Assembly (NCBI GenBank): GCA_024275165.1
Contig: JAJRZQ010000042.1
Location: 1-44,380, forward strand
Direction: 5' to 3'
DNA from: a bacterium
GTDB lineage: Bacteria > SAR324 > XYD2-FULL-50-16
DNA: 44,380 nucleotides
The translations under genes and the position numbers were made by a program. Shown piece after piece: positions 1 to 42,553 of the stretch (position 1 is its first letter; each line of letters starts with the position of its first letter). Under the pieces are notes generated by a model, which was given only the letters and a program-made list of their open reading frames with translations, made no database searches and was not told the origin of the DNA.

Positions 1-1
1 A

Positions 2-238
2 TTACATTTGGAAGCAAAGCGCCTGGTCGCGATATTCCAAGGAATTCTCGAAGGAGAACGGCTCTTAGGCCCGAAGGAAGCGCCTCATTACAAGGCGGCG
101 GATCGCTTTTATCTACAAATCCTGATTCAAGTAAAAAGCCTAACCCGCTTTAAGGGCCGCCTAAAGGCTCTTTTAGTGAGCGGCTCCTTGAAAAGCCCGG
201 CCCGCATCAGCTTTGATGTGGACCCGGCGACCGCTTAA
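2..238 (+). CDS. priA: Primosomal protein N' (PriA helicase), C-terminal fragment
   Basis: This is the 3' end of an open frame that enters from outside the window. About 78 residues and the stop codon are present; the frame is open back to base 2, so a TTG at base 8 is internal rather than a start. The segment matches the C-terminal domain of PriA, the 3'-5' helicase that reloads the replisome at stalled forks. The match rests on the pattern LGP near the middle, the YLQILIQ strand, and the terminal SFDVDP motif, which parallels the LDVDP ending of E. coli PriA. The helicase motifs and zinc cysteines lie upstream and cannot be checked. A weak intrinsic terminator follows the stop. Confidence 0.85.
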   Translation, partial: LHLEAKRLVAIFQGILEGERLLGPKEAPHYKAADRFYLQILIQVKSLTRFKGRLKALLVSGSLKSPARISFDVDPATA

Positions 239-261
239 AAAAAACTCGCCGCCCCTTTTTT
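225..261 (+). terminator. Candidate terminator after priA
   Basis: CGGCGA (225-230) can pair with TCGCCG (246-251) across a 15-base A-rich loop, followed by CCCC and six T residues (256-261). The stem is short and overlaps the priA stop codon. The convergent fecR-like gene ends at the T tract. It is plausible as an intrinsic terminator but weak. Confidence 0.4.
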
Positions 262-1240
262 ACTCTACGATTTTACCGGTGGACATATCCACGCGAATGG
301 TTCGTTGAATTTTTTTAGGAATGTCATAGGACAACAATGTTTCTCCCACACCCACTTCCATGGCCTGCTTGCCATCCATCACCGCGAATAGGGTGAGCTG
401 TCCATTTTTATAATCCGCTCTTTGGAAGGGTTTGATGATCGCCCGCACCCTTGCGTATCCGCGTTCATTTAATTTAATCTCTTTTGGGAAACTGAATTTG
501 TCATTATCCAAGGTGAGATAAACCCGCCCCTGGCGATGCAGGTTTTGACGGGATTTAACCTCAATCAACTGTAGGGTAAAGAAAATCTCTTCCTTTTCGC
601 CCGCTTCGGGTAACTTGATTCGATTTGAATCGGGCTTAATCGAAATCTGATAAGGCATTTCACTTACCTTATCTTGCATCATCCCGACACGCTGAACCCC
701 TTTTAAGCGATATCCCGCCTTCAGGCTCATCCGGTCTGTTTCGTTTTCCACCGAAACCTCTCCCTTAGAAAGGGCGATATCGAGACGGCTCCCTTTTTGG
801 GACAGGGCTACATTGGTTCCTTTGATCCCAATGGTCGCAGAAGGAGTCGCGATTTGAGTATGTTGGCGCCCCTTGGCAAAGCGGGCCCAGAAACTTCCCA
901 CAGAGAGTTTGAAATTATACAGCATACTCCGTTGCTCGTCCCCGGTTTCTTCGCTTTTTTCGATTATGAAACGAGTATTTTGAAAAAGACGAACCTCGGT
1001 GCCATCTCTAAAAATAATGGTGACCCGTCCATTGCCGCTGGTTAAAACGACATCCTTATCATTTAAAATCACACCCACCCTTCCCGGGATTTTTCTTGCT
1101 TCGCGCAAAACCTGTACATTCCCATCTAATTTACCAAAACTGGCTACCGCTTCGATAGCGAACACCGGTTCGGGCTTAAAAACTAAGAATAGGCTTAAAA
1201 ATCCGACAAGAAGCAAAATATAACTCGTCTTTTTCATCAT
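260..1240 (-). CDS. FecR-domain exported protein
   Basis: The product is an exported protein of about 326 aa. The chosen start (ATG at 1240; a second ATG follows directly) gives a classical signal peptide: MMKK, a long hydrophobic run, then a VFA cleavage site. An ATG at 1282 would add a polar 14-residue leader and has no ribosome site. The mature N-terminus carries a FecR-type fold: a hydrophobic strand, the pattern GNGRVTIIFRDGTEVRL, then ATPSATIGIKGTNVAL and LSKGEVSV, all typical of FecR domains outside iron-sensing systems. The C-terminal half (about residues 210-326) is beta-rich and unassigned. No sigma factor or TonB receptor gene is nearby, so regulation of iron uptake is not implied. 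A peptidoglycan or surface-associated role is possible but not shown. Confidence 0.7.
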   Translation of the reverse strand: MMKKTSYILLLVGFLSLFLVFKPEPVFAIEAVASFGKLDGNVQVLREARKIPGRVGVILNDKDVVLTSGNGRVTIIFRDGTEVRLFQNTRFIIEKSEETGDEQRSMLYNFKLSVGSFWARFAKGRQHTQIATPSATIGIKGTNVALSQKGSRLDIALSKGEVSVENETDRMSLKAGYRLKGVQRVGMMQDKVSEMPYQISIKPDSNRIKLPEAGEKEEIFFTLQLIEVKSRQNLHRQGRVYLTLDNDKFSFPKEIKLNERGYARVRAIIKPFQRADYKNGQLTLFAVMDGKQAMEVGVGETLLSYDIPKKIQRTIRVDMSTGKIVE

Positions 1241-1351
1241 AATTAAACCGAAAGAATCTTTTATATAAGATTTTTTTTGCATAAAACATGCAAAACTTTA
1301 TTTTATCTTTGATATCAAAAAAATAGCTCTATGCTTCCTCCTGGGGTTCGC

Positions 1352-1765
1352 CTATTTCGTCGAATCATCGACGAAATACAACCGCCTTTCTTGATCTGTG
1401 ACTTGTATTTTAATCTGAATGGAACAAAAAGCCAAGATTTCTTCAAAGGCATCGGCCCATTCAATCAAGGTGATTGCTTGAGGGTTTTCTAAACTTTCAT
1501 ATATTTCAATATATTCAAGGTCATTTAAATCCTCAACGCGATAAAGGTCAAAATGATGAAATAGATAACCCTCCCCCTCATAACAATGAAAAAGACTAAA
1601 ACTAGGGCTCGCTACCTCCTTTGCCAAACCAGGAGCCAGTTCACCGACCAGGGCTTTGACTAAGTGGGTTTTGCCTGAGCCAAGATCCCCTAAAAGAGCA
1701 ATTTTTCTACCTTTTAGGCCCCCTTGAAGGCATATAAGCTGTTTGATCAATGCCTTCAGAGACAT
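1352..1765 (-). CDS. tsaE: tRNA t6A biosynthesis ATPase TsaE
   Basis: TsaE is the P-loop ATPase that works with TsaB, TsaC and TsaD to make N6-threonylcarbamoyladenosine at position 37 of ANN-decoding tRNAs. The 137-aa product shows the Walker A motif GDLGSGKT (residues 26-33) and the family signatures SPSFSLFHCYEG and FHHFDLYRVED, plus IEWAD in the Walker B region. Length is close to the usual 140-160 aa. It starts about 90 bp from dnaA and is transcribed away from it. TsaB, TsaC and TsaD are not in the window. Confidence 0.92.
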   Translation of the reverse strand: MSLKALIKQLICLQGGLKGRKIALLGDLGSGKTHLVKALVGELAPGLAKEVASPSFSLFHCYEGEGYLFHHFDLYRVEDLNDLEYIEIYESLENPQAITLIEWADAFEEILAFCSIQIKIQVTDQERRLYFVDDSTK

Positions 1766-1853
1766 TTTTTTTCTCTCTTTTTTCCTTAACGAAATTCACT
1801 CAATTGGGTAAAATCATGCAAGTTCATGATGACCCCTTTAGAATAAATTCAAA

Positions 1854-3209
1854 TTGTTGAAATTACAAGAAATTAATAACCCTTCCTGGTCTACCGCCTT
1901 TACCTCTTTTTTAAGTTTGCTCCGTCAAGATATTGACCTAGATGAAGTGGAAGCTTGGGTTAAAAAGATTCAACTATTGGATTTTCTTCCCCACCGCGTC
2001 ACTTTAGGGAATTTAAATCAATTTTTTTGCAATTTCATTAAGTTACACCATAGAGATTTAATTCGGCACCATTTAATCTCTTGCTTTAAAAACCTCGGAC
2101 TTGAAGAAGACTTTGAACTCTTAATTCTCGCTCAGGGTATAACAGAAACCAACCCCGCCCTGCCAAAAAATCCGGAAAAGAAAGATTTTGAGCAAGATGG
2201 TCTCAACCCTTTATTTACCTTTGAAGAATTCATCAATGGGGGAAATTCAGATATCGCCTATGCGGCCGCTTTGGCGGTTGGAGAAAACATTAAAGAAAAC
2301 AAATACAACCCTCTTTTTATCTGTGGCGATGTAGGTTTAGGCAAAACCCATCTCTTGCAGGCGATTGGACTTAGAGCCAAAGAAAAAGAGACCTTAAAAA
2401 TCCGTTATGCCTCCTGCAAGGATTTTATCAACGAGGTTATTGAGGGAATCCGCTTTCAAAAGATCCAACAGGTCAGAAACAAATATCGTTTTGTCGACCT
2501 CTTAATGATTGATGATATTCAATTCCTTGAAAACAAAGAAAGCACCCAAGAAGAATTTTTCTATATCTTTAATGAGTTGATTCAAAACAATAAACAAATC
2601 ATTCTCACTTCAGACCGCTACCCTAGAGAAATCAAAAATTTAGAAGAGCGCTTAGTCAATCGCTTTAATTCGGGAATGGTGGCGCGAATTTACCCCCCTG
2701 ATTTTGAAACAAGAGTGGCCATCATCCAAAACAAGGTGGCCAAAAAACAGATTCCCTTAAATCAAGAAATCATCGACTACCTCGCAGGAGCGATTAAATC
2801 CAATGTGAGAGACATTGAAGGAATTTTGGTTCATATTGAGGCCAATCACAGCCTTTTAAGCCAATCCATTACCCTTGAGGCGGTAAAACGAATCCTGAAA
2901 GAGGTTTTAAACCTTGAAGGGGAACCAAAAACCATTGAAAATATTATCAAACTTGTTTGTGTTAAATTTGGGGTCAAGGCCTCCGACCTCAAATCAGACA
3001 AGCGCACCCAAGAGATTAGTAAACCCAGACAAATCGCTATGTTTGTCTCTAGAGAAGCAACGGGTTTAAGCTTTCCTGCCATTGCCGAGCATTTTGGCGG
3101 AAAAAATCACACTACCGTAATCCAAGCTTATAAAAAAACCAAGGAATGGATTGAAAAAGACGCAGAGATCAAGCAAACCATCAATAGCATTTTAAGAGAG
3201 CTTTCTTGA
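1854..3209 (+). CDS. dnaA: Chromosomal replication initiator DnaA
   Basis: DnaA binds and melts the origin and recruits the helicase. The 451-aa protein has all four domains. Domain I (about 10-85) has the W...F..WIK-like pattern. Domain II is a short linker (about 95-120). The AAA+ domain has Walker A GDVGLGKT (158-165), Walker B LLMIDDIQF (about 216-224) and the LEERLVNRF sensor region. Domain IV is a helix-turn-helix with FGGKNHTTVIQA (about 414-425), the DnaA-box reading signature. An in-frame stop at 1839-1841 forces a start after it; TTG at 1854 (or the adjacent TTG at 1857) is the only plausible start that keeps domain I complete. No good Shine-Dalgarno is visible, which may mean low or regulated translation. 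It heads the dnaA-dnaN-recF-gyrB cluster. Confidence 0.97.
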   Translation: MLKLQEINNPSWSTAFTSFLSLLRQDIDLDEVEAWVKKIQLLDFLPHRVTLGNLNQFFCNFIKLHHRDLIRHHLISCFKNLGLEEDFELLILAQGITETNPALPKNPEKKDFEQDGLNPLFTFEEFINGGNSDIAYAAALAVGENIKENKYNPLFICGDVGLGKTHLLQAIGLRAKEKETLKIRYASCKDFINEVIEGIRFQKIQQVRNKYRFVDLLMIDDIQFLENKESTQEEFFYIFNELIQNNKQIILTSDRYPREIKNLEERLVNRFNSGMVARIYPPDFETRVAIIQNKVAKKQIPLNQEIIDYLAGAIKSNVRDIEGILVHIEANHSLLSQSITLEAVKRILKEVLNLEGEPKTIENIIKLVCVKFGVKASDLKSDKRTQEISKPRQIAMFVSREATGLSFPAIAEHFGGKNHTTVIQAYKKTKEWIEKDAEIKQTINSILRELS

Positions 3210-3402
3210 TTCGATGAAACAACAAATTGTGCAAAACTAAGGTTTGACCCTGAGTCTTTTTTCCATTTTTCTCTTCCTTTACCTCAAGAACTCATCCTTG
3301 GGTAAAACCTTAGAAAATTTCACCAAGAGTTTTTTTGTTAAAATTCAATGATAATAAACAGTTATATCTATTTTTACTCCTTCCACAAGCCCTACTACTA
3401 CT
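3210..3402. other. Candidate oriC (dnaA-dnaN intergenic region)
   Basis: This 193-bp noncoding gap between dnaA and dnaN is AT-rich, especially 3335-3380. Seen: TTTTGCACA on the minus strand (3228-3236), which fits the relaxed DnaA-box consensus TTWTNCACA; CCTTCCACA on the plus strand (3379-3387), which keeps only the TCCACA core; and a CTA tract (3392-3403), four perfect repeats running into the dnaN ATG. A DnaA-box core, a short GC-containing spacer and a CTA tract (3'-GAT-5' on the other strand) resemble the DnaA-trio unwinding element described in Bacillus subtilis. The location is a standard oriC position. Strong consensus boxes (TTATCCACA) are absent, so this is a candidate only. Confidence 0.5.
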
Positions 3403-4517
3403 ATGAAAATAAGAATTCAAAAAAATATTCTTTTAGAAGCATTGCAGTTGATCCTTTCAATCTCGCCCAAAGCAACCAGTCTGCAAGCAATTGGAAATCT
3501 TTTAATTGAAACCGATGCAAATCAGGTCATCATCAAAGCGACCAATTTTGAGGTTACTTTTTTAGGTTCTTTTCCCGCTATCATAGAAAAAGAGGGAAAA
3601 GCCTGCATCCAAACCGCTAAACTTCACAATCTAGCTCGAAACTTTATTGCCAGTGAAGTGGTTATTGAAGCAACCAAGCAAAATTGGGTTTTGCTGCAAA
3701 ATGGAAATACGAGTTTAAAACTTCCTGGGATTGATCCAGATGCCTTTCCACCCATTGAGTTTAAACAACTTGAGCAAAATTTTGTTTTACCCAGTGAAGA
3801 ATTAAAATTAGCGATTGATCGAACTCTGTTTGCCATTGGAGAAAACGAGAGCAGAAAAAATCTAATGGGTTTGAATTTAGAAGTAATTGAGCCAAAGTCG
3901 ATCCGTTGGATGGGGGCCGATGCTTTTCGGATCGCTCAGGCAATTACGGATTTAGAAAGTGAAATCACGGCAAAAGGAAACATTATTATTCCTAAAAAAA
4001 GCTTAAATGAGGTTAAACGAATTTTAGATTATGCCCAGGGGCCGATCCAGCTTTCTTTTGATGAAAATACCTTTCAAATCGAAGCGGGAAAGATTTATTT
4101 TAAAACCCGTTTAATTGAAGCGGATTACCCAAATTTAGAACGAATCTTAACGGCCATGGGAGCAACGGAGGTGGAAGTTCCTAAAGGGGAGTTGACCCGA
4201 GCGGTGCGAATTTTAAATACCCTTTATGATGGGGACCCAAACGCGGTGATGAAACTGACTTTTATGCAAGATCAAATTATTGTGGAATCACAAAAATTGG
4301 AAAATGGGGAAGGAGTGGATCGAATCTATTGTCCCTATGCAGGAGAAGAAATTAGTATCGGTTTAAATATTCAATTTGTTTTAGAGGCTCTCCAGGTGTT
4401 TGAATCCGCGTCGGAAGAAACGATTCTGTTTAATTTTTCCGGGTCCGTGCAGCCTTTTTTTATTCGCACTCATGCTTGGCCTCAATTTAAAACCGTTTTA
4501 ATGCCCGTTAAGATCAA

Positions 4518-4524
<7 letters not shown>
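3403..4524 (+). CDS. dnaN: DNA polymerase III sliding clamp (beta subunit)
   Basis: The beta clamp forms a ring around DNA and tethers polymerase III and repair factors. The product is 373 aa, the normal length, made of three similar domains. It begins MKIRIQKNILLEAL. Family patterns visible are GADAFRIAQ in the middle domain, LIEADYPNLERIL, and the C-terminal PFFIRTHAWPQFKTVLMPVKI, which corresponds to the usual ...yvvMPmrl ending. The ATG at 3403 lies directly after a CTA repeat and has no recognisable Shine-Dalgarno. The gene overlaps recF by 7 bp, so the two are probably translated together. Confidence 0.97.
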
Positions 4525-7957
<3,433 letters not shown>

Positions 7958-8015
7958 CAGGGGCCCTTGTTGATTTCCGCAAAGCAACCTGCCTTCCAAA
8001 TCCTTTTGCAACCCG

Positions 8016-10136
8016 TTATGGAGCAGGGGTAAGATATTTTTTTAAAATTCGAATCACCTGTTTTTTCTCCACTGGTTTGGAAATATATTCGTCACAAAGC
8101 TCGAGAATCTTGATTCGATCTTGTTCTAAAACCGACGCGGTCAAAGCGATGATGGGGATATGGCGGGTTTTTGGGTTTGCCTTGAGTTTACGACTTGCCT
8201 CAAAGCCATCCATGACGGGCATTTTCATATCCATTAAGATGAGGTCGGGGGGGTTGTTTTGAACTTGCTCCAAGGCCTCTTGCCCGTTTTTCGCCGTGCT
8301 GATTTTTAAGCTAAATCCCTTTAACATGCTTTGGATTAGGCTACGATTGGGGGCAATATCATCAACGAGCAAAATATGCCCCTTTAGGTTTATACTGGAG
8401 CTTTCAAGAGAAGTTTTTGGGTTGTGGTGGACTCCTATGGTTAGTTCCGGCAAGGTGAGGGTAAAGCTCGTGCCCTTTCCGAGTTGGCTTTTTACCTCAA
8501 GGGCGCCTCCGATCAATTGAATGAGACTATCGGAGATCGAAAGTCCTAATCCGGTCCCTCCATAGGTGTTGTGGTCTTGGTTTGCCGGTTGATAAAAGGG
8601 GTCGAAAATATGGGGTAGGTCTTCTGAGGATATCCCTCTACCCGTATCCTTCACCTCGATTTTTAAGCCGCAACGCAGCGAGTTTGCGGAGGGAAGAGCT
8701 TGCATGCTCACTTGAATCGAACCCTTGTTGGTAAACTTCAAGGCATTCCCCGTCAGGTTGTTGATGACCTGGATTAAGCGATGCCCATCCACGACCAGCA
8801 ATGGAGGGAGCCTTTCGTCATAGCTAAATTCCATGTTTAATCCTTTTGCCTCTGCTTGATGCAGGAAAAGGTTTTTGGTTTCTTCCAAAATCGGTTTTAA
8901 GGCAAAGGGGTAGGGGTTTAAGTTGAGTTTTCCCGCATCGATTTTTGAGAGGTCTAAAACCCCGTTGATTAAGACCAAAAGGCTTTTTCCCGCTTTATGA
9001 ATGAAATCGACAAAACGAGCTTCCTCCTCTTTTAAGGGGAATTCTTTTAAAATTTCACTAAAGCCTAAAATGGAGTTCATGGGGGTGCGAATCTCATGGC
9101 TCATGTTGGCTAAAAAAACCGACTTGGCTAGGTTGGCTTTTTCTGCGTTTTCCATGGCCTGCTTGAGTTTGATGGCCGCTTGTTTGGTTTCGGTGATGTC
9201 TTGTAAGGAAAAGTTCAGAATTTTTGGTTTGGTTGTTGGGTCACTGCTGGCTCTCCCTTGATTGCGCACGATTCGGGCGATCCCGTCTTTACGGCGTATA
9301 GCGTGTTCAATCTCATATTCGTTGATCTCGCCGTGAATAAGCTGGCGAATTAGCTTGAGCAGCTTGGTTTGATCCTCAGGGGATAAAAATTCCTTAAAGC
9401 CTTTCCAGTTGTTGGCCAGTTCTCCTTTTTTAATCCCTAAGAGTTGATGAATCCCCGGGCTCCATTCCATTTCGTCTTGGCTTAAGTTCCAATAGGCGCT
9501 TCCTTGTTGGGCAATGTTTTGGGCTTCTAGCAGGCTTTCTTGGCTCCTTTGTAGTTGGGCTTCTGTTTGCCTTCGTACCTGAACTTCTTGATTCAGCGCA
9601 AGGTTTTGCTGGGTCAATCGTTGCTGGTAGTTTTGAGTGCGGAGCAAAAAAACCCACATCATGCCGAATAGGGCGATCAAAAAAATAAGTTCATCGATCC
9701 ATTCCTTATTCATGGGGGTATAGCCGTTGATACCCAAGAGCAGAAGGGTGAAGATGTTGACCAACCAAACCGCGATATAAAAATTTAGCTTTAAGAGTAA
9801 ACTACTTACGACAATGGAAGCGGCAAGCCATTTTAAGGAAAAGGAAAAGTCCAGCCCGCTTCCATACATGGCGTGGGGGGGAACGATGAGCGCCAAGGCA
9901 AAAAAGAACTTAGCCCCATTATAAAAATGGGTTTTATTGAGCCAAAACAAAATGAAGCTTACCACCCAAAAGGAAAGGAGAATTTTGATCCAACTGGGGT
10001 CGGCAAAGCTCAATTGAATAGGCAGGACAATTAAGATCAGCAGCAACATTTGGCTGAAGATCATCGCGCTGCGTTGCTCGCCTTCATCAAAAATCTTGGG
10101 GTAGGGGGAGAGGAGGGTTTGAAGTTTTGAGTCCAT
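8016..10136 (-). CDS. Orphan membrane hybrid sensor histidine kinase (PAS-HisKA-HATPase-REC)
   Basis: The product (706 aa from ATG 10136) is a membrane-bound hybrid two-component kinase. Residues about 25-165 hold around six hydrophobic segments forming an integral membrane sensor, followed by a Gln-rich coiled coil (about 165-205). A PAS fold (about 205-320) ends with the usual DITETKQA. HisKA carries the phospho-acceptor in MSHEIRTPMN (His347). The HATPase has NNLTGNALKFT, DTGRGIS and GGTGLGL. The C-terminal receiver domain has the acidic pair in LLVDD, the phosphorylated Asp in LILMDMKMP (Asp636) and the Lys in ISKPV. A TTG at 10148 is an alternative start. No response regulator or phosphotransfer gene is adjacent, so the partner and signal are unknown. 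It faces gyrB tail to tail. Confidence 0.9.
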   Translation of the reverse strand: MDSKLQTLLSPYPKIFDEGEQRSAMIFSQMLLLILIVLPIQLSFADPSWIKILLSFWVVSFILFWLNKTHFYNGAKFFFALALIVPPHAMYGSGLDFSFSLKWLAASIVVSSLLLKLNFYIAVWLVNIFTLLLLGINGYTPMNKEWIDELIFLIALFGMMWVFLLRTQNYQQRLTQQNLALNQEVQVRRQTEAQLQRSQESLLEAQNIAQQGSAYWNLSQDEMEWSPGIHQLLGIKKGELANNWKGFKEFLSPEDQTKLLKLIRQLIHGEINEYEIEHAIRRKDGIARIVRNQGRASSDPTTKPKILNFSLQDITETKQAAIKLKQAMENAEKANLAKSVFLANMSHEIRTPMNSILGFSEILKEFPLKEEEARFVDFIHKAGKSLLVLINGVLDLSKIDAGKLNLNPYPFALKPILEETKNLFLHQAEAKGLNMEFSYDERLPPLLVVDGHRLIQVINNLTGNALKFTNKGSIQVSMQALPSANSLRCGLKIEVKDTGRGISSEDLPHIFDPFYQPANQDHNTYGGTGLGLSISDSLIQLIGGALEVKSQLGKGTSFTLTLPELTIGVHHNPKTSLESSSINLKGHILLVDDIAPNRSLIQSMLKGFSLKISTAKNGQEALEQVQNNPPDLILMDMKMPVMDGFEASRKLKANPKTRHIPIIALTASVLEQDRIKILELCDEYISKPVEKKQVIRILKKYLTPAP

Positions 10137-38516: not shown

Positions 38517-38540
38517 AAGGGGCTGAGCGCCCCTTTTTTT
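38517..38540 (+). terminator. Terminator after ssb
   Basis: AAGGGGC-TGAGC-GCCCCTT followed by five more T residues makes a 7-bp stem intrinsic terminator. It overlaps the miaA stop codon, so it may serve both convergent transcripts. Confidence 0.85.
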
Positions 38541-39441
38541 ATGTTTCTAAAAAGACACGAACCCTTTTTTGCAAGTCCTCATAGTTTTTCACCTCCCTTA
38601 AGTTCATCCCTTCTTTTTGCATGTAACGGATAAAGGTCATTTGCCGTTTGGCGAATTTCTTGATCTCTAGAGCGAGCTTGTTTTGCATGGGGGCTGATTC
38701 GATCTCTCCCAAGAGGTGGCAAGTGATCCATTTGTATTCGAGTCCGTAGCGTTTGAGCCGTGTCGCGGGCACACCGCTGGATAAAAGCCCTTCGACTTCT
38801 TGCGCCAGTCCTTGAGAAAAACGCAGAGCCAGCCGCTCCTCAATGCGCTTGCGGAGTTCGTTGCGCTCTGGTTCAAGGTAAAACCCTTGATAATCGTATT
38901 GCGCCGCAAAGTTCGGGGGGGCAGTGGATTTTTTCTCCTGCTGTTTTTTTTCGATCCAGCGGGCCAGCCTTCGTTTGCTTTCTTGGGACCAGTTTTTTTG
39001 ATGATCCTGTTCCAATTCTTGCAGGCGTTTTAAAAGCTCTTTTTTGGAGAGGGATTCCAAGGCGAGGGAGGTTGTTAAGTCGGTGGGGGGGTGGGTGAAG
39101 TGATAGTCTTGCGCCAAGGCTTTGAGATAATGCCCGCTGCCTCCGCAGAGGATGGGGAGTCGCTTTTTTTGAGCCACTTGCCGCAGCGTTTTTAAAGCCT
39201 GTTCTTGGAATTGACGGACGGAAAAATCCGCTCCCGCGGGGAGGAGGTCAATGAGGTGATAGGGAACCCCATCGTATGCGTGGAGGTCTTTTCCGCTCCC
39301 GAGGTCCATGCCTTGAAAAACCTGCCTTGAATCAACAGAGAGGATTTCACCCTGAAATTCCTTGGCTAGGCGAACGGCCATCTCGGTTTTTCCCGAGGCG
39401 GTAGGGCCGGTTAAGAGGACGACCTTTGGTTTGTTGCCCAT
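38539..39441 (-). CDS. miaA: tRNA dimethylallyltransferase (divergent MiaA)
   Basis: MiaA adds a dimethylallyl group to A37 of UNN-decoding tRNAs. The 300-aa product has P-loop GPTASGKT (12-19), DSRQVFQGMDLGSGKD, VPYHLIDLLPA, and LCGGSGHYLKAL. The C-terminal FAKRQMTFIRY is the usual KRQxTWxR element. The common IGYxE motif before it is replaced by RYGLEYKWI, so this is a divergent branch. The ATG at 39441 is chosen because the longer frame adds a basic 19-residue leader without homology. It converges with ssb. Confidence 0.88.
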   Translation of the reverse strand: MGNKPKVVLLTGPTASGKTEMAVRLAKEFQGEILSVDSRQVFQGMDLGSGKDLHAYDGVPYHLIDLLPAGADFSVRQFQEQALKTLRQVAQKKRLPILCGGSGHYLKALAQDYHFTHPPTDLTTSLALESLSKKELLKRLQELEQDHQKNWSQESKRRLARWIEKKQQEKKSTAPPNFAAQYDYQGFYLEPERNELRKRIEERLALRFSQGLAQEVEGLLSSGVPATRLKRYGLEYKWITCHLLGEIESAPMQNKLALEIKKFAKRQMTFIRYMQKEGMNLREVKNYEDLQKRVRVFLET

Positions 39442-39561
39442 CTTTAGGAAACTCTGAAAAACGCGGAGTTTCCTGGCGAGGCAGGGATGCCTTGCCAAAT
39501 CAAAAAGAGCAACTTATTGATTTGCATTGAGGTTGTGGATTTTAGTCACCGCCGAAAAGAC

Positions 39562-39586
39562 TAAAAAACTCCAAGGAGGGAGTTCT
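39562..39586 (-). terminator. Intrinsic terminator of the TPR protein gene
   Basis: On the minus strand AACTCC (39584-39579) pairs with GGAGTT (39572-39567), continuing into a T run (39568-39563). It lies about 60 bp past the stop of the TPR gene. A second inverted repeat, TTTAGTC/GACTAAA (39541-39547 and 39559-39565), follows. Confidence 0.6.
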
Positions 39587-39623
39587 TCAGAGGTTCTTTT
39601 ATAGTATAGCATGCCTTGAAAAT

Positions 39624-39639
39624 TGTTTCACGTGAAACA
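39624..39639. promoter_or_regulatory. parS centromere-like site (ParB-binding palindrome)
   Basis: TGTTTCACGTGAAACA is a perfect 16-bp palindrome identical to the canonical bacterial chromosomal parS site bound by ParB/Spo0J. It lies 8 bp past the stop of the TPR gene and before that gene's terminator, in a short noncoding gap, about 36 kb from dnaA. This fits the origin-proximal clustering of parS. parA and parB are not in the window. Confidence 0.9.
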
Positions 39640-39646
39640 TCCTTTT

Positions 39647-42553
39647 TTATTTTTCCTTCAATTGCCCTCGCAGTTTTTTGCTTTGATCCACCAACTCAGG
39701 GGCTAAGGCGGGGTTGAACTTGTCGAGGTATTCTTTTGCCGAGGCCTGATCTCCTTCTTGAAGGTAAAGGCGAGTAAGTTTTAAAAGCAGTTCTTGTTTT
39801 TCCAATTGGCTGTTCCCCTTGCGATAGTAAAGCCGCAGCAAATTGCGCAAGGCGCTTTTGGCGTCGCCGCTTTGGGCTTTCATTTCCGTTTGCAGTTGGA
39901 GGGCCTCTTTATAATGATGAATCTCTCGGTACTGGTTGGGGTCGCCTAAGGTTTGGTCGCCCTCGGCAAATTGGCCGAGCTTATAGAGGTTTTTTGCCCC
40001 TAAGAGCCGCGCCTGGAGTTGGAGTTTTTTGGGGGCCTGGGACGCGATTTTTTTAAGGGTTTCTTGGCTCGCTTGATAACTCCCCTGATGATACCTCGCC
40101 TCAGCTAAAATAAGGGCGATTTCTCCTTGGCGATACTTACTTTTCGCTCTGGCCAGTTCCCGCTCCAGCTTGGCGAAGACCTCCTTCCCTCGTCCGCTTT
40201 TGATTGCGCAGCGAGCAAAAAGAATCGACTGATCCCGGGATTCAAATTCGTTGGGTTGTTCTAAAGGAACCTCGATTTGATCGGCGCAGAGGGTATAATT
40301 CCCTCGGTCATAGGAGGACTGAGCTTGACGGAGGCGAATCTGGTTTTTTTTGTAGCGGTGATGCTGGATATAGTCGCTTAGCAAGGCATCGGATTGACGG
40401 ATTTGGCCTGATTCGAGGTAGTGGTTGCTTAAAACCTGGGTCAATTGGTAGCGGGTCGGGGGTTCTAAGGCCGCCTTGAGGGCGAGGGCCGCCTCGGGCT
40501 CAAAGGCCTTCATGTCCTTTGCCGCATAACTGCACATGGCTAGATTGAAACGAGCCAAGGCTTGTTTTTTGGGGTCCTTGGCCAGGGCGATAGTAGCGGC
40601 AAAATGCCGGTGGGCCGCGCTGTACTTTTTTTGATTAAAGTAAACATCCCCTAAGATCAGGTGGTAGTTCAGGCGTTCGGTATCGTTTTTGGCGGATTGG
40701 AGCAAGGGGGTGACCCGCTGAACGATCTTTTCGTATTTTTGGTTGACCAGCCAGACCTCGACATGCAAATCGAGCAGTTCTTTGCCCTTAAACCTCTCTT
40801 CCTCCAAAATCCGCATGGCTAGGGGAGCGCGATTCAAGGCGAGTAGGGATTTAACTCGGTAGCGCAATAAATCCTTAGAATGCAGGCCGCTATGTTTCGC
40901 GGCTAAATCTAAGGCTTGTTGGTATTTCCCTTGTTGGTAATAGGCTTGCGCGGCGTAGCCCAAGGCCTCGGGTCGTTTGCCCTGCTCCCAGCCGTATAAA
41001 AAAGCTTGAATCGCTTCGGGGTGACGCCCTAGCCCGTAGAGCAGGCTGCCTTTCATCAGGTGGACCTCCCATTGGGCCTTTGCCGTCATCTCCGTTAAAT
41101 CGACCTGAGGGAAGTAAGCCAAAAAGGCCTTTGCCTGTTTTTGCTGATAATAGGCGTAGAGGAGGTGGTAGCCCAGCCAAAGCTTATTCTTCGGGTTTTT
41201 TTCTTGCGCCAGCTCCTTAAATATCCTCGCCGCCTTGGGGTAGCGGCCCTGATTTAAATGAACCAGACCCATGTCGTAGCGGGCGATCCAGTATAAGTTC
41301 GCGTCGCTATCCACACTCAAGGCAGTAAGAAAATTCTTCTCCGCTGCCTCAATTTGCCCCTTTAAAAAATGAGCTTGCCCCTCCAATAAAGCGGTGTAAA
41401 AGCGCAGAGCGGGAAAGTGCAAGGGCTGGCCGATGACCTTGGCCTTGAGTTTGGGCTCTTGGTTGAGGTTTTTGTAAAAGGCGCGAATTTGAAAGGAGGC
41501 ATAGGCGGAAAAGGGGGAGCCCTTGGGAATGCGCTCTAAGAGGGTCGCCAAGTTTTGCCCCTCTTGCAAGCGCACTTTGGAGGCGATGAGGAGATAGGTC
41601 AATTCGGCTTGGGCGGGCGAAAGCCCTAAGGCCAATTCCTCCCCCGCTAAACGCTTGGATTCTGTGGGCCGGCCCGAAAGGTAATAGAGCCAAGCCTGCA
41701 CCCGGCGGTGGCGGCTCTTGCTCCAAGCCCCGGGCGAAAGCCGTTGCGCCTCTTTATAGGCTGTCAGCGCTCTGGGGAAATCGTTTTCCGCATAGGCGAT
41801 GGCCCCTTCGAGCTCTTTGATTTTTCCGTAATAAGGGCTGTAGGTGATTCCTGTTTGGGCAAAATCCGCTAAAAAAGTCCTCGCTTCTTTCCATTGTTTA
41901 TTTTGTACCAGATTGACCAGTTGGAGATAGCGTAGGCGAAAGTTCCAATCTGCGGGTTGTAATTCTTTCTTTGCTTTCGCCAACCATTGATTGAGCTTGA
42001 CCATCTGGGCAGAGCGCAAAAAATGCAAGCCCGCCAGATAGAACCCCTCGGCCCGCAAGCGGGGGGCTTTGCTTTGGGTTAGGTCTTGGGCGAGGTTAAA
42101 GGAGGCGTCCATCTCTTCTAATTTATAGAGAGTCCAGGCTTGCCAGGCCACCGCCTTTTCCCAGACCTCGCTGGTTCCCTTGTCGATCAAGAGGGCAAAG
42201 CGGCCTTTCGCTTTTTCATATTCCCCTGCTTGATACTCGATGATCCCTGCGTCGAGCAACCCCTTGGAACCCATGACCGCGCCGGCCAGCCCAGGGGAGA
42301 GGCGGGCCAGCCAGGACTGGGATTCAACCAGACCGTTTTCTTGCGGGAGCTCTACAGGGCCGGGGCCGAAGTCGGGGCTGAAGGGTTCTAAAGCCTTATC
42401 GGGCCGACGGGGATCATATTGGTGCCCCTTGACCTGAGGGCGAATGGGGTTTGCTGGTCGCAAGGCAATGATCTTGACCTGTTCGGGGTCTAGGTCCTGA
42501 CCGAAAAGGGAGCAACTCAAGCTTAAAAAAAGCAGCAGTACAAAGGGCTTCAT
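39647..42553 (-). CDS. Large exported TPR-repeat protein
   Basis: The 968-aa product is an exported helical-repeat protein of unknown function. The N-terminus MKPFVLLLFLSLSCSLFGQ is a signal peptide; a Cys is present in it but the surrounding residues do not form a good lipobox. From about residue 90 to the end there are repeated 34-residue-like helix pairs with the TPR pattern (A...Y..G.Y..A), such as YQAGEYEKAKGRF, LNQGRYPKAARIFKEL, YQQGKYQQALDLAAK and FNQKKYSAAHRHF. Such proteins usually act as protein-binding scaffolds in the periplasm. It has no coupled neighbour. A parS site sits in its 3' flank. Confidence 0.8.
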   Translation of the reverse strand: MKPFVLLLFLSLSCSLFGQDLDPEQVKIIALRPANPIRPQVKGHQYDPRRPDKALEPFSPDFGPGPVELPQENGLVESQSWLARLSPGLAGAVMGSKGLLDAGIIEYQAGEYEKAKGRFALLIDKGTSEVWEKAVAWQAWTLYKLEEMDASFNLAQDLTQSKAPRLRAEGFYLAGLHFLRSAQMVKLNQWLAKAKKELQPADWNFRLRYLQLVNLVQNKQWKEARTFLADFAQTGITYSPYYGKIKELEGAIAYAENDFPRALTAYKEAQRLSPGAWSKSRHRRVQAWLYYLSGRPTESKRLAGEELALGLSPAQAELTYLLIASKVRLQEGQNLATLLERIPKGSPFSAYASFQIRAFYKNLNQEPKLKAKVIGQPLHFPALRFYTALLEGQAHFLKGQIEAAEKNFLTALSVDSDANLYWIARYDMGLVHLNQGRYPKAARIFKELAQEKNPKNKLWLGYHLLYAYYQQKQAKAFLAYFPQVDLTEMTAKAQWEVHLMKGSLLYGLGRHPEAIQAFLYGWEQGKRPEALGYAAQAYYQQGKYQQALDLAAKHSGLHSKDLLRYRVKSLLALNRAPLAMRILEEERFKGKELLDLHVEVWLVNQKYEKIVQRVTPLLQSAKNDTERLNYHLILGDVYFNQKKYSAAHRHFAATIALAKDPKKQALARFNLAMCSYAAKDMKAFEPEAALALKAALEPPTRYQLTQVLSNHYLESGQIRQSDALLSDYIQHHRYKKNQIRLRQAQSSYDRGNYTLCADQIEVPLEQPNEFESRDQSILFARCAIKSGRGKEVFAKLERELARAKSKYRQGEIALILAEARYHQGSYQASQETLKKIASQAPKKLQLQARLLGAKNLYKLGQFAEGDQTLGDPNQYREIHHYKEALQLQTEMKAQSGDAKSALRNLLRLYYRKGNSQLEKQELLLKLTRLYLQEGDQASAKEYLDKFNPALAPELVDQSKKLRGQLKEK

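Follow-up and report, generated by a model that had tools for sequence, protein, structure and literature searches.

A single origin-proximal parS site, very probably part of a canonical ParABS system, in an uncultured bacterial lineage

Does a perfect 16-bp palindrome next to a TPR gene and miaA mark the centromere of this bacterial chromosome? The palindrome lies in a contig of 44,380 nucleotides (hereafter the window, meaning the whole stretch of DNA that was analyzed) from a metagenome-type genome whose phylum we take to be SAR324/Candidatus Lambdaproteobacteria; NCBI ranks Lambdaproteobacteria as a class. The DnaA of the host shares 65% identity with the DnaA of Candidatus Lambdaproteobacteria bacterium RIFOXYD2_FULL_50_16, a relative from the same family. 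The site and its surroundings are as follows.

39624..39639, no strand assigned: parS, TGTTTCACGTGAAACA, a perfect 16-bp palindrome (pattern match and conservation in relatives)
39647..42553, minus strand: TPR-repeat protein gene, 968 aa, with a signal-peptide-like start (orthologs at the same place in relatives)
38539..39498, minus strand: miaA, tRNA dimethylallyltransferase, the downstream neighbor of parS (TIGR00174, above cut-off)
39603..39631, minus strand: promoter-like GTGAAA-17-TATACT (consensus match only; not conserved in relatives)
39561..39590, minus strand: terminator-like hairpin between parS and miaA (consensus match only)

The first-pass annotation had read a perfect 16-bp ParB site at 39624-39639, and the exact 16-mer is found there. 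The genome-wide search that it had proposed was run at up to two mismatches, and returned a single origin-proximal copy rather than scattered ones; "clustering" near the origin has no meaning for a lone parS. No second match at two or fewer mismatches occurs in the whole 2,694,447-base (2.69 Mb) assembly, a count that holds for 47 contigs at 98.35% completeness, where a gap could hide a second parS. Within the window, there were no other matches at three or fewer mismatches (shuffles predict 0.17), and a reversed-pattern control gave 0 matches in the whole assembly. From composition (50% G+C), chance predicts ∼0.0006 exact and ∼0.7 matches at two or fewer mismatches per genome, so that an exact copy is well beyond chance. 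A palindrome that arose by chance and has no function could still be proposed, given that only one copy is present and that the gene neighborhood alone would not predict a parS; against this stand the expectation of 0.0006 per genome and the comparisons with relatives below.

Of the nine same-family genomes, eight have the site where miaA begins, at its 5' end or shortly upstream of it; the site is exact in seven and has one mismatch in G008. The ninth, G005, is without an exact parS; it is 79% complete and its miaA junction was not recovered. On the other side of parS, the TPR gene is found in seven of the eight, with another stretch intervening in G002; no TPR gene was found in G004. In an ungapped comparison anchored on parS (nine sequences, one of them from the window genome), identity is 99% over the 16-mer, versus 24 to 31%, the random level, in each adjacent 16-nt window, as expected of a site conserved by selection. 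The coding context shifts from genome to genome. The site is intergenic in the window genome, G001, G003, G006 and G008; G007 and G009 have it inside the long TPR frame. In G002 and G004 it belongs to the 5' end of the miaA frame, and its letters would read FHVKH after a TTG start or start at the GTG. Sixteen conserved base pairs, random flanks and a shifting coding context show that selection acts on the parS DNA itself, not on a peptide or an RNA.

The pattern extends across the phylum. Exactly one exact parS is present in 39 of 52 phylum genomes and two copies in none (0/52), and the reversed control is found in 0/52. Several of the remaining genomes have a one-mismatch parS, and the two that were checked both have it at the same address. 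That address differs between families. In families f3 and f4, parS adjoins cmk (cytidylate kinase) in 20 of the 20 loci inspected (L094-L113), where four of the genes were confirmed by model score and the others were assigned solely from the P-loop and N-terminus. The cmk-adjacent copy in L096 is a one-mismatch site. The distance from the site to the cmk start codon in f3 is 6 to 9 nt, and 8 nt in most f3 genomes. On the far side of parS, f3 encodes a long TPR protein, which matches the window TPR protein in a profile comparison with a probability of 99.8, although repeat proteins can align without common descent. In family f1, cmk is located elsewhere; the rimO-yebC-ruvC-ruvA-ssb cluster is near parS in f1 and is also close in several f4 loci.

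These comparisons bear on the chance reading, which is refuted by the family data: eight other family members have the palindrome at this junction between flanks that cannot be aligned, and it occurs in 39/52 phylum genomes versus 0/52 for the control. We give a functionless palindrome next to no credence.

A further reading is that the 16 bp are a transcriptional element of the TPR-miaA junction, such as an operator, part of a promoter or a terminator hairpin, and not a centromere. The TPR stop codon (39647-39649) is separated from parS by a 7-nt gap on the minus strand, and the true miaA start is likely the ATG at about 39441. The promoter-like sequence, in which TG precedes the second hexamer (extended -10), overlaps parS with its -35-like half, and a terminator-like hairpin follows; in G007, moreover, the site centers a 50-bp perfect palindrome. 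However, among the relatives compared, conservation extends neither to the promoter-like sequence nor to the terminator-like hairpin, so we gave them no functional weight and rejected their overlap as a real signal. Conservation is confined to the 16 bp, which two other families have next to another gene, cmk, and which are identical to the known ParB site; this makes a transcriptional element highly unlikely. The parS reading is thus retained at this junction. The first-pass annotation had also held that parS, between a stop codon and its terminator, is transcribed by read-out of the TPR gene, with a possible effect on ParB loading. The anatomy of stop codon, parS and terminator-like hairpin is true of the window, where it makes read-out across parS from the TPR gene plausible, but the layout is not conserved (G002, G004, G007 and G009 differ).

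Next to be placed is the origin of replication, with these features.

1854..3209, plus strand: dnaA, which marks the origin region (TIGR00362)
3403..4524, plus strand: dnaN (TIGR00663)
1..360, plus strand: contig overlap inside the 3' part of priA (361 bp of the end of contig C20, 99.2%)

The cumulative G-C minimum falls at 3651, consistent with an origin at dnaA-dnaN. No DnaA box within one mismatch of TTATCCACA was found in the gaps flanking dnaA (1766-1853 and 3210-3402), and the origin was therefore placed by dnaA and GC skew only; DnaA boxes near dnaA may have diverged. The window has a G+C content of 38 to 45% over 1-10000, the origin region, and 49 to 55% in the rest. parS lies 36.4 kb from the end of dnaA, in agreement with the "about 36 kb" of the first-pass annotation, and 37.8 kb from its start (1.4% of the genome), near the replication origin as for a chromosomal ParABS. 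Where both are on one contig, parS and dnaA are similarly spaced in relatives (∼31 kb in G003 and G006, 30 kb in G007, and 33 kb in G028).

The overlapping end of C20 corresponds to L083:19625-19985, and the 361-bp, 99.2% match indicates that C20 and the window contig adjoin and that the assembly is joinable there. C20 carries gyrA-parA-parB-bactofilin-priA, as well as pyrG and uvrA, and the joined order is gyrA-parA-parB-bactofilin-priA-tsaE-dnaA ... parS. The order gyrA-(TPR lipoprotein)-parA-parB-bactofilin-priA-FecR-like-tsaE-dnaA is intact in G001 and G002, and an ATP synthase operon is inserted in the gyrA-to-dnaA order in G004. Since the contigs adjoin, parB is ∼4.7 kb to the left of dnaA (parAB ∼5 kb to the left); parS is to its right, on the opposite side from parAB and ∼42 kb from parB. 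In the window genome, pyrG (CTP synthase) lies ∼7 kb from parA.

The partner genes, which the first-pass annotation had suggested looking for, are one canonical ParB and an adjacent ParA ATPase.

L083:15105-15884: parA, adjoining parB
L083:15881-16747 (C20:58980-59843): parB, directly after parA

gyrA is upstream and priA downstream of parAB, and parB is followed by a bactofilin-like gene, a name given by eye from the sequence with no family model positive. A profile search identifies a single ParB_N protein in the genome (E 2.8e-35). Most of the protein can be aligned with solved Spo0J/ParB structures (the best being Spo0J, PDB ID: 1vz0, 1e-58), and it has the CTPase motif GERRLRA (GERRxRA type) and a helix-turn-helix. 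With the residue register counted by hand along the helix-turn-helix against the parS contacts in PMC7383237, Q162, G170, K171, R173, N178, G201 and R204 (Caulobacter numbering) are present; N replaces S at position 172, and M occupies the variable position 179. The genome also encodes SMC (870 bits) and ScpA.

Noc, the nucleoid occlusion protein, is a ParB paralog with a similar 16-bp palindromic site, and among NCBIfam models the Noc model TIGR04285 gives this ParB its highest score, so that the palindrome could be a Noc binding site. Noc sites are many per chromosome, which counts against this reading, and the sequence here is that of parS. The protein scores 254.9 against the Noc cut-off of 315 and is above the general ParB cut-off. 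R173 and G201 are described as invariant in ParB and as altered in Noc (PMC7383237); the sole ParB of this genome has both specificity residues, and neither the Noc residues Q173 and R201 nor a full Noc model score. A Noc site is therefore extremely improbable.

Taken with a unique, near-origin site that is kept at the same junction in relatives, these partners make it almost certain that this is a real centromere of the ordinary kind, and we consider it very probable that the palindrome is the functional, and probably the only, parS of a canonical chromosomal ParABS. The first-pass proposal that the chromosome is segregated by a ParABS system with this parS is supported by the single origin-proximal site, the ParAB pair and the conservation in family and phylum. 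We infer binding, CTP gating, segregation and SMC loading at parS from what is established for ParABS systems. The single ParB would recognize parS through its helix-turn-helix, bind CTP, close into a clamp and slide onto neighboring DNA. A partition complex would thus build ∼38 kb from dnaA and would be moved by ParA, whose gene lies with parB ∼5 kb from dnaA in the opposite direction, and SMC-ScpA would probably be loaded at parS.

Such a system resembles the ParABS of Caulobacter, Bacillus and Pseudomonas in its 16-bp parS, canonical ParA, CTPase ParB, origin-proximal site and SMC-ScpA, but differs in that a single parS, located across dnaA from parAB, takes the place of a cluster. In Caulobacter, at least five parS lie ∼8 kb from ori, and according to a 2017 study most species carry more than one (PMC5815017). 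Bdellovibrio bacteriovorus shares the parA-parB-bactofilin order of the window genome and has two parS near oriC (PMC10547168), whereas the single site here is far from parAB. ParABS with a single parS is already known: Xanthomonas campestris likewise has one parS with a canonical ParABS, as cited in PMC7333895. Unlike that case, the single copy here is the rule over an uncultured phylum and has a conserved gene address, a combination that we regard as mildly unusual. One of the four origin-proximal parS of Pseudomonas aeruginosa suffices (PMC4368675), and the variation in parS number, though one is often enough, is a question raised in a 2020 review (PMC7333895). The site is very probably the centromere of this uncultured lineage. 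One exact parS per chromosome, at a stable gene address, appears to be the rule in the phylum, and a lineage held at one parS is a useful comparative case for the question of parS number. parS is also of practical use as a marker of the origin when the contigs of these metagenome bins are put in order.

Given that ParB is a CTPase and that parS adjoins the starts of cmk and miaA, we speculated that occupancy of parS by ParB might tune expression of the gene next to it, which would ancestrally have encoded an enzyme of the CTP pool, and thereby couple centromere state to nucleotide supply. None of the papers searched links parS with cytidylate kinase. We view this coupling as doubtful in the extreme; simple inheritance of the parS address is far more likely than ParB-tuned expression.

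In f4, an orphan ParA-like ATPase is encoded near parS, on the side away from cmk (L097:10068-11042, L095:5974-6753, L099:496-1293, and others). It was rejected as parA, being ∼25% identical to the window ParA; in G028, the only f4 genome examined for this, the contig with parS is not the one that carries the canonical parB. In G008, which is without an exact parS, there are three one-mismatch sites, two of them 5.6 kb apart (L093:6805 and 12453), near ispD-rimO and at the miaA-TPR junction; these sites are possibly an early multi-site cluster. The extent of perfect symmetry around parS also varies: the 50-bp palindrome that it centers in G007 spans L086:9984-10033, and perfect palindromes of 30 bp in G003 (L089) and of 16 to 20 bp elsewhere surround the site.
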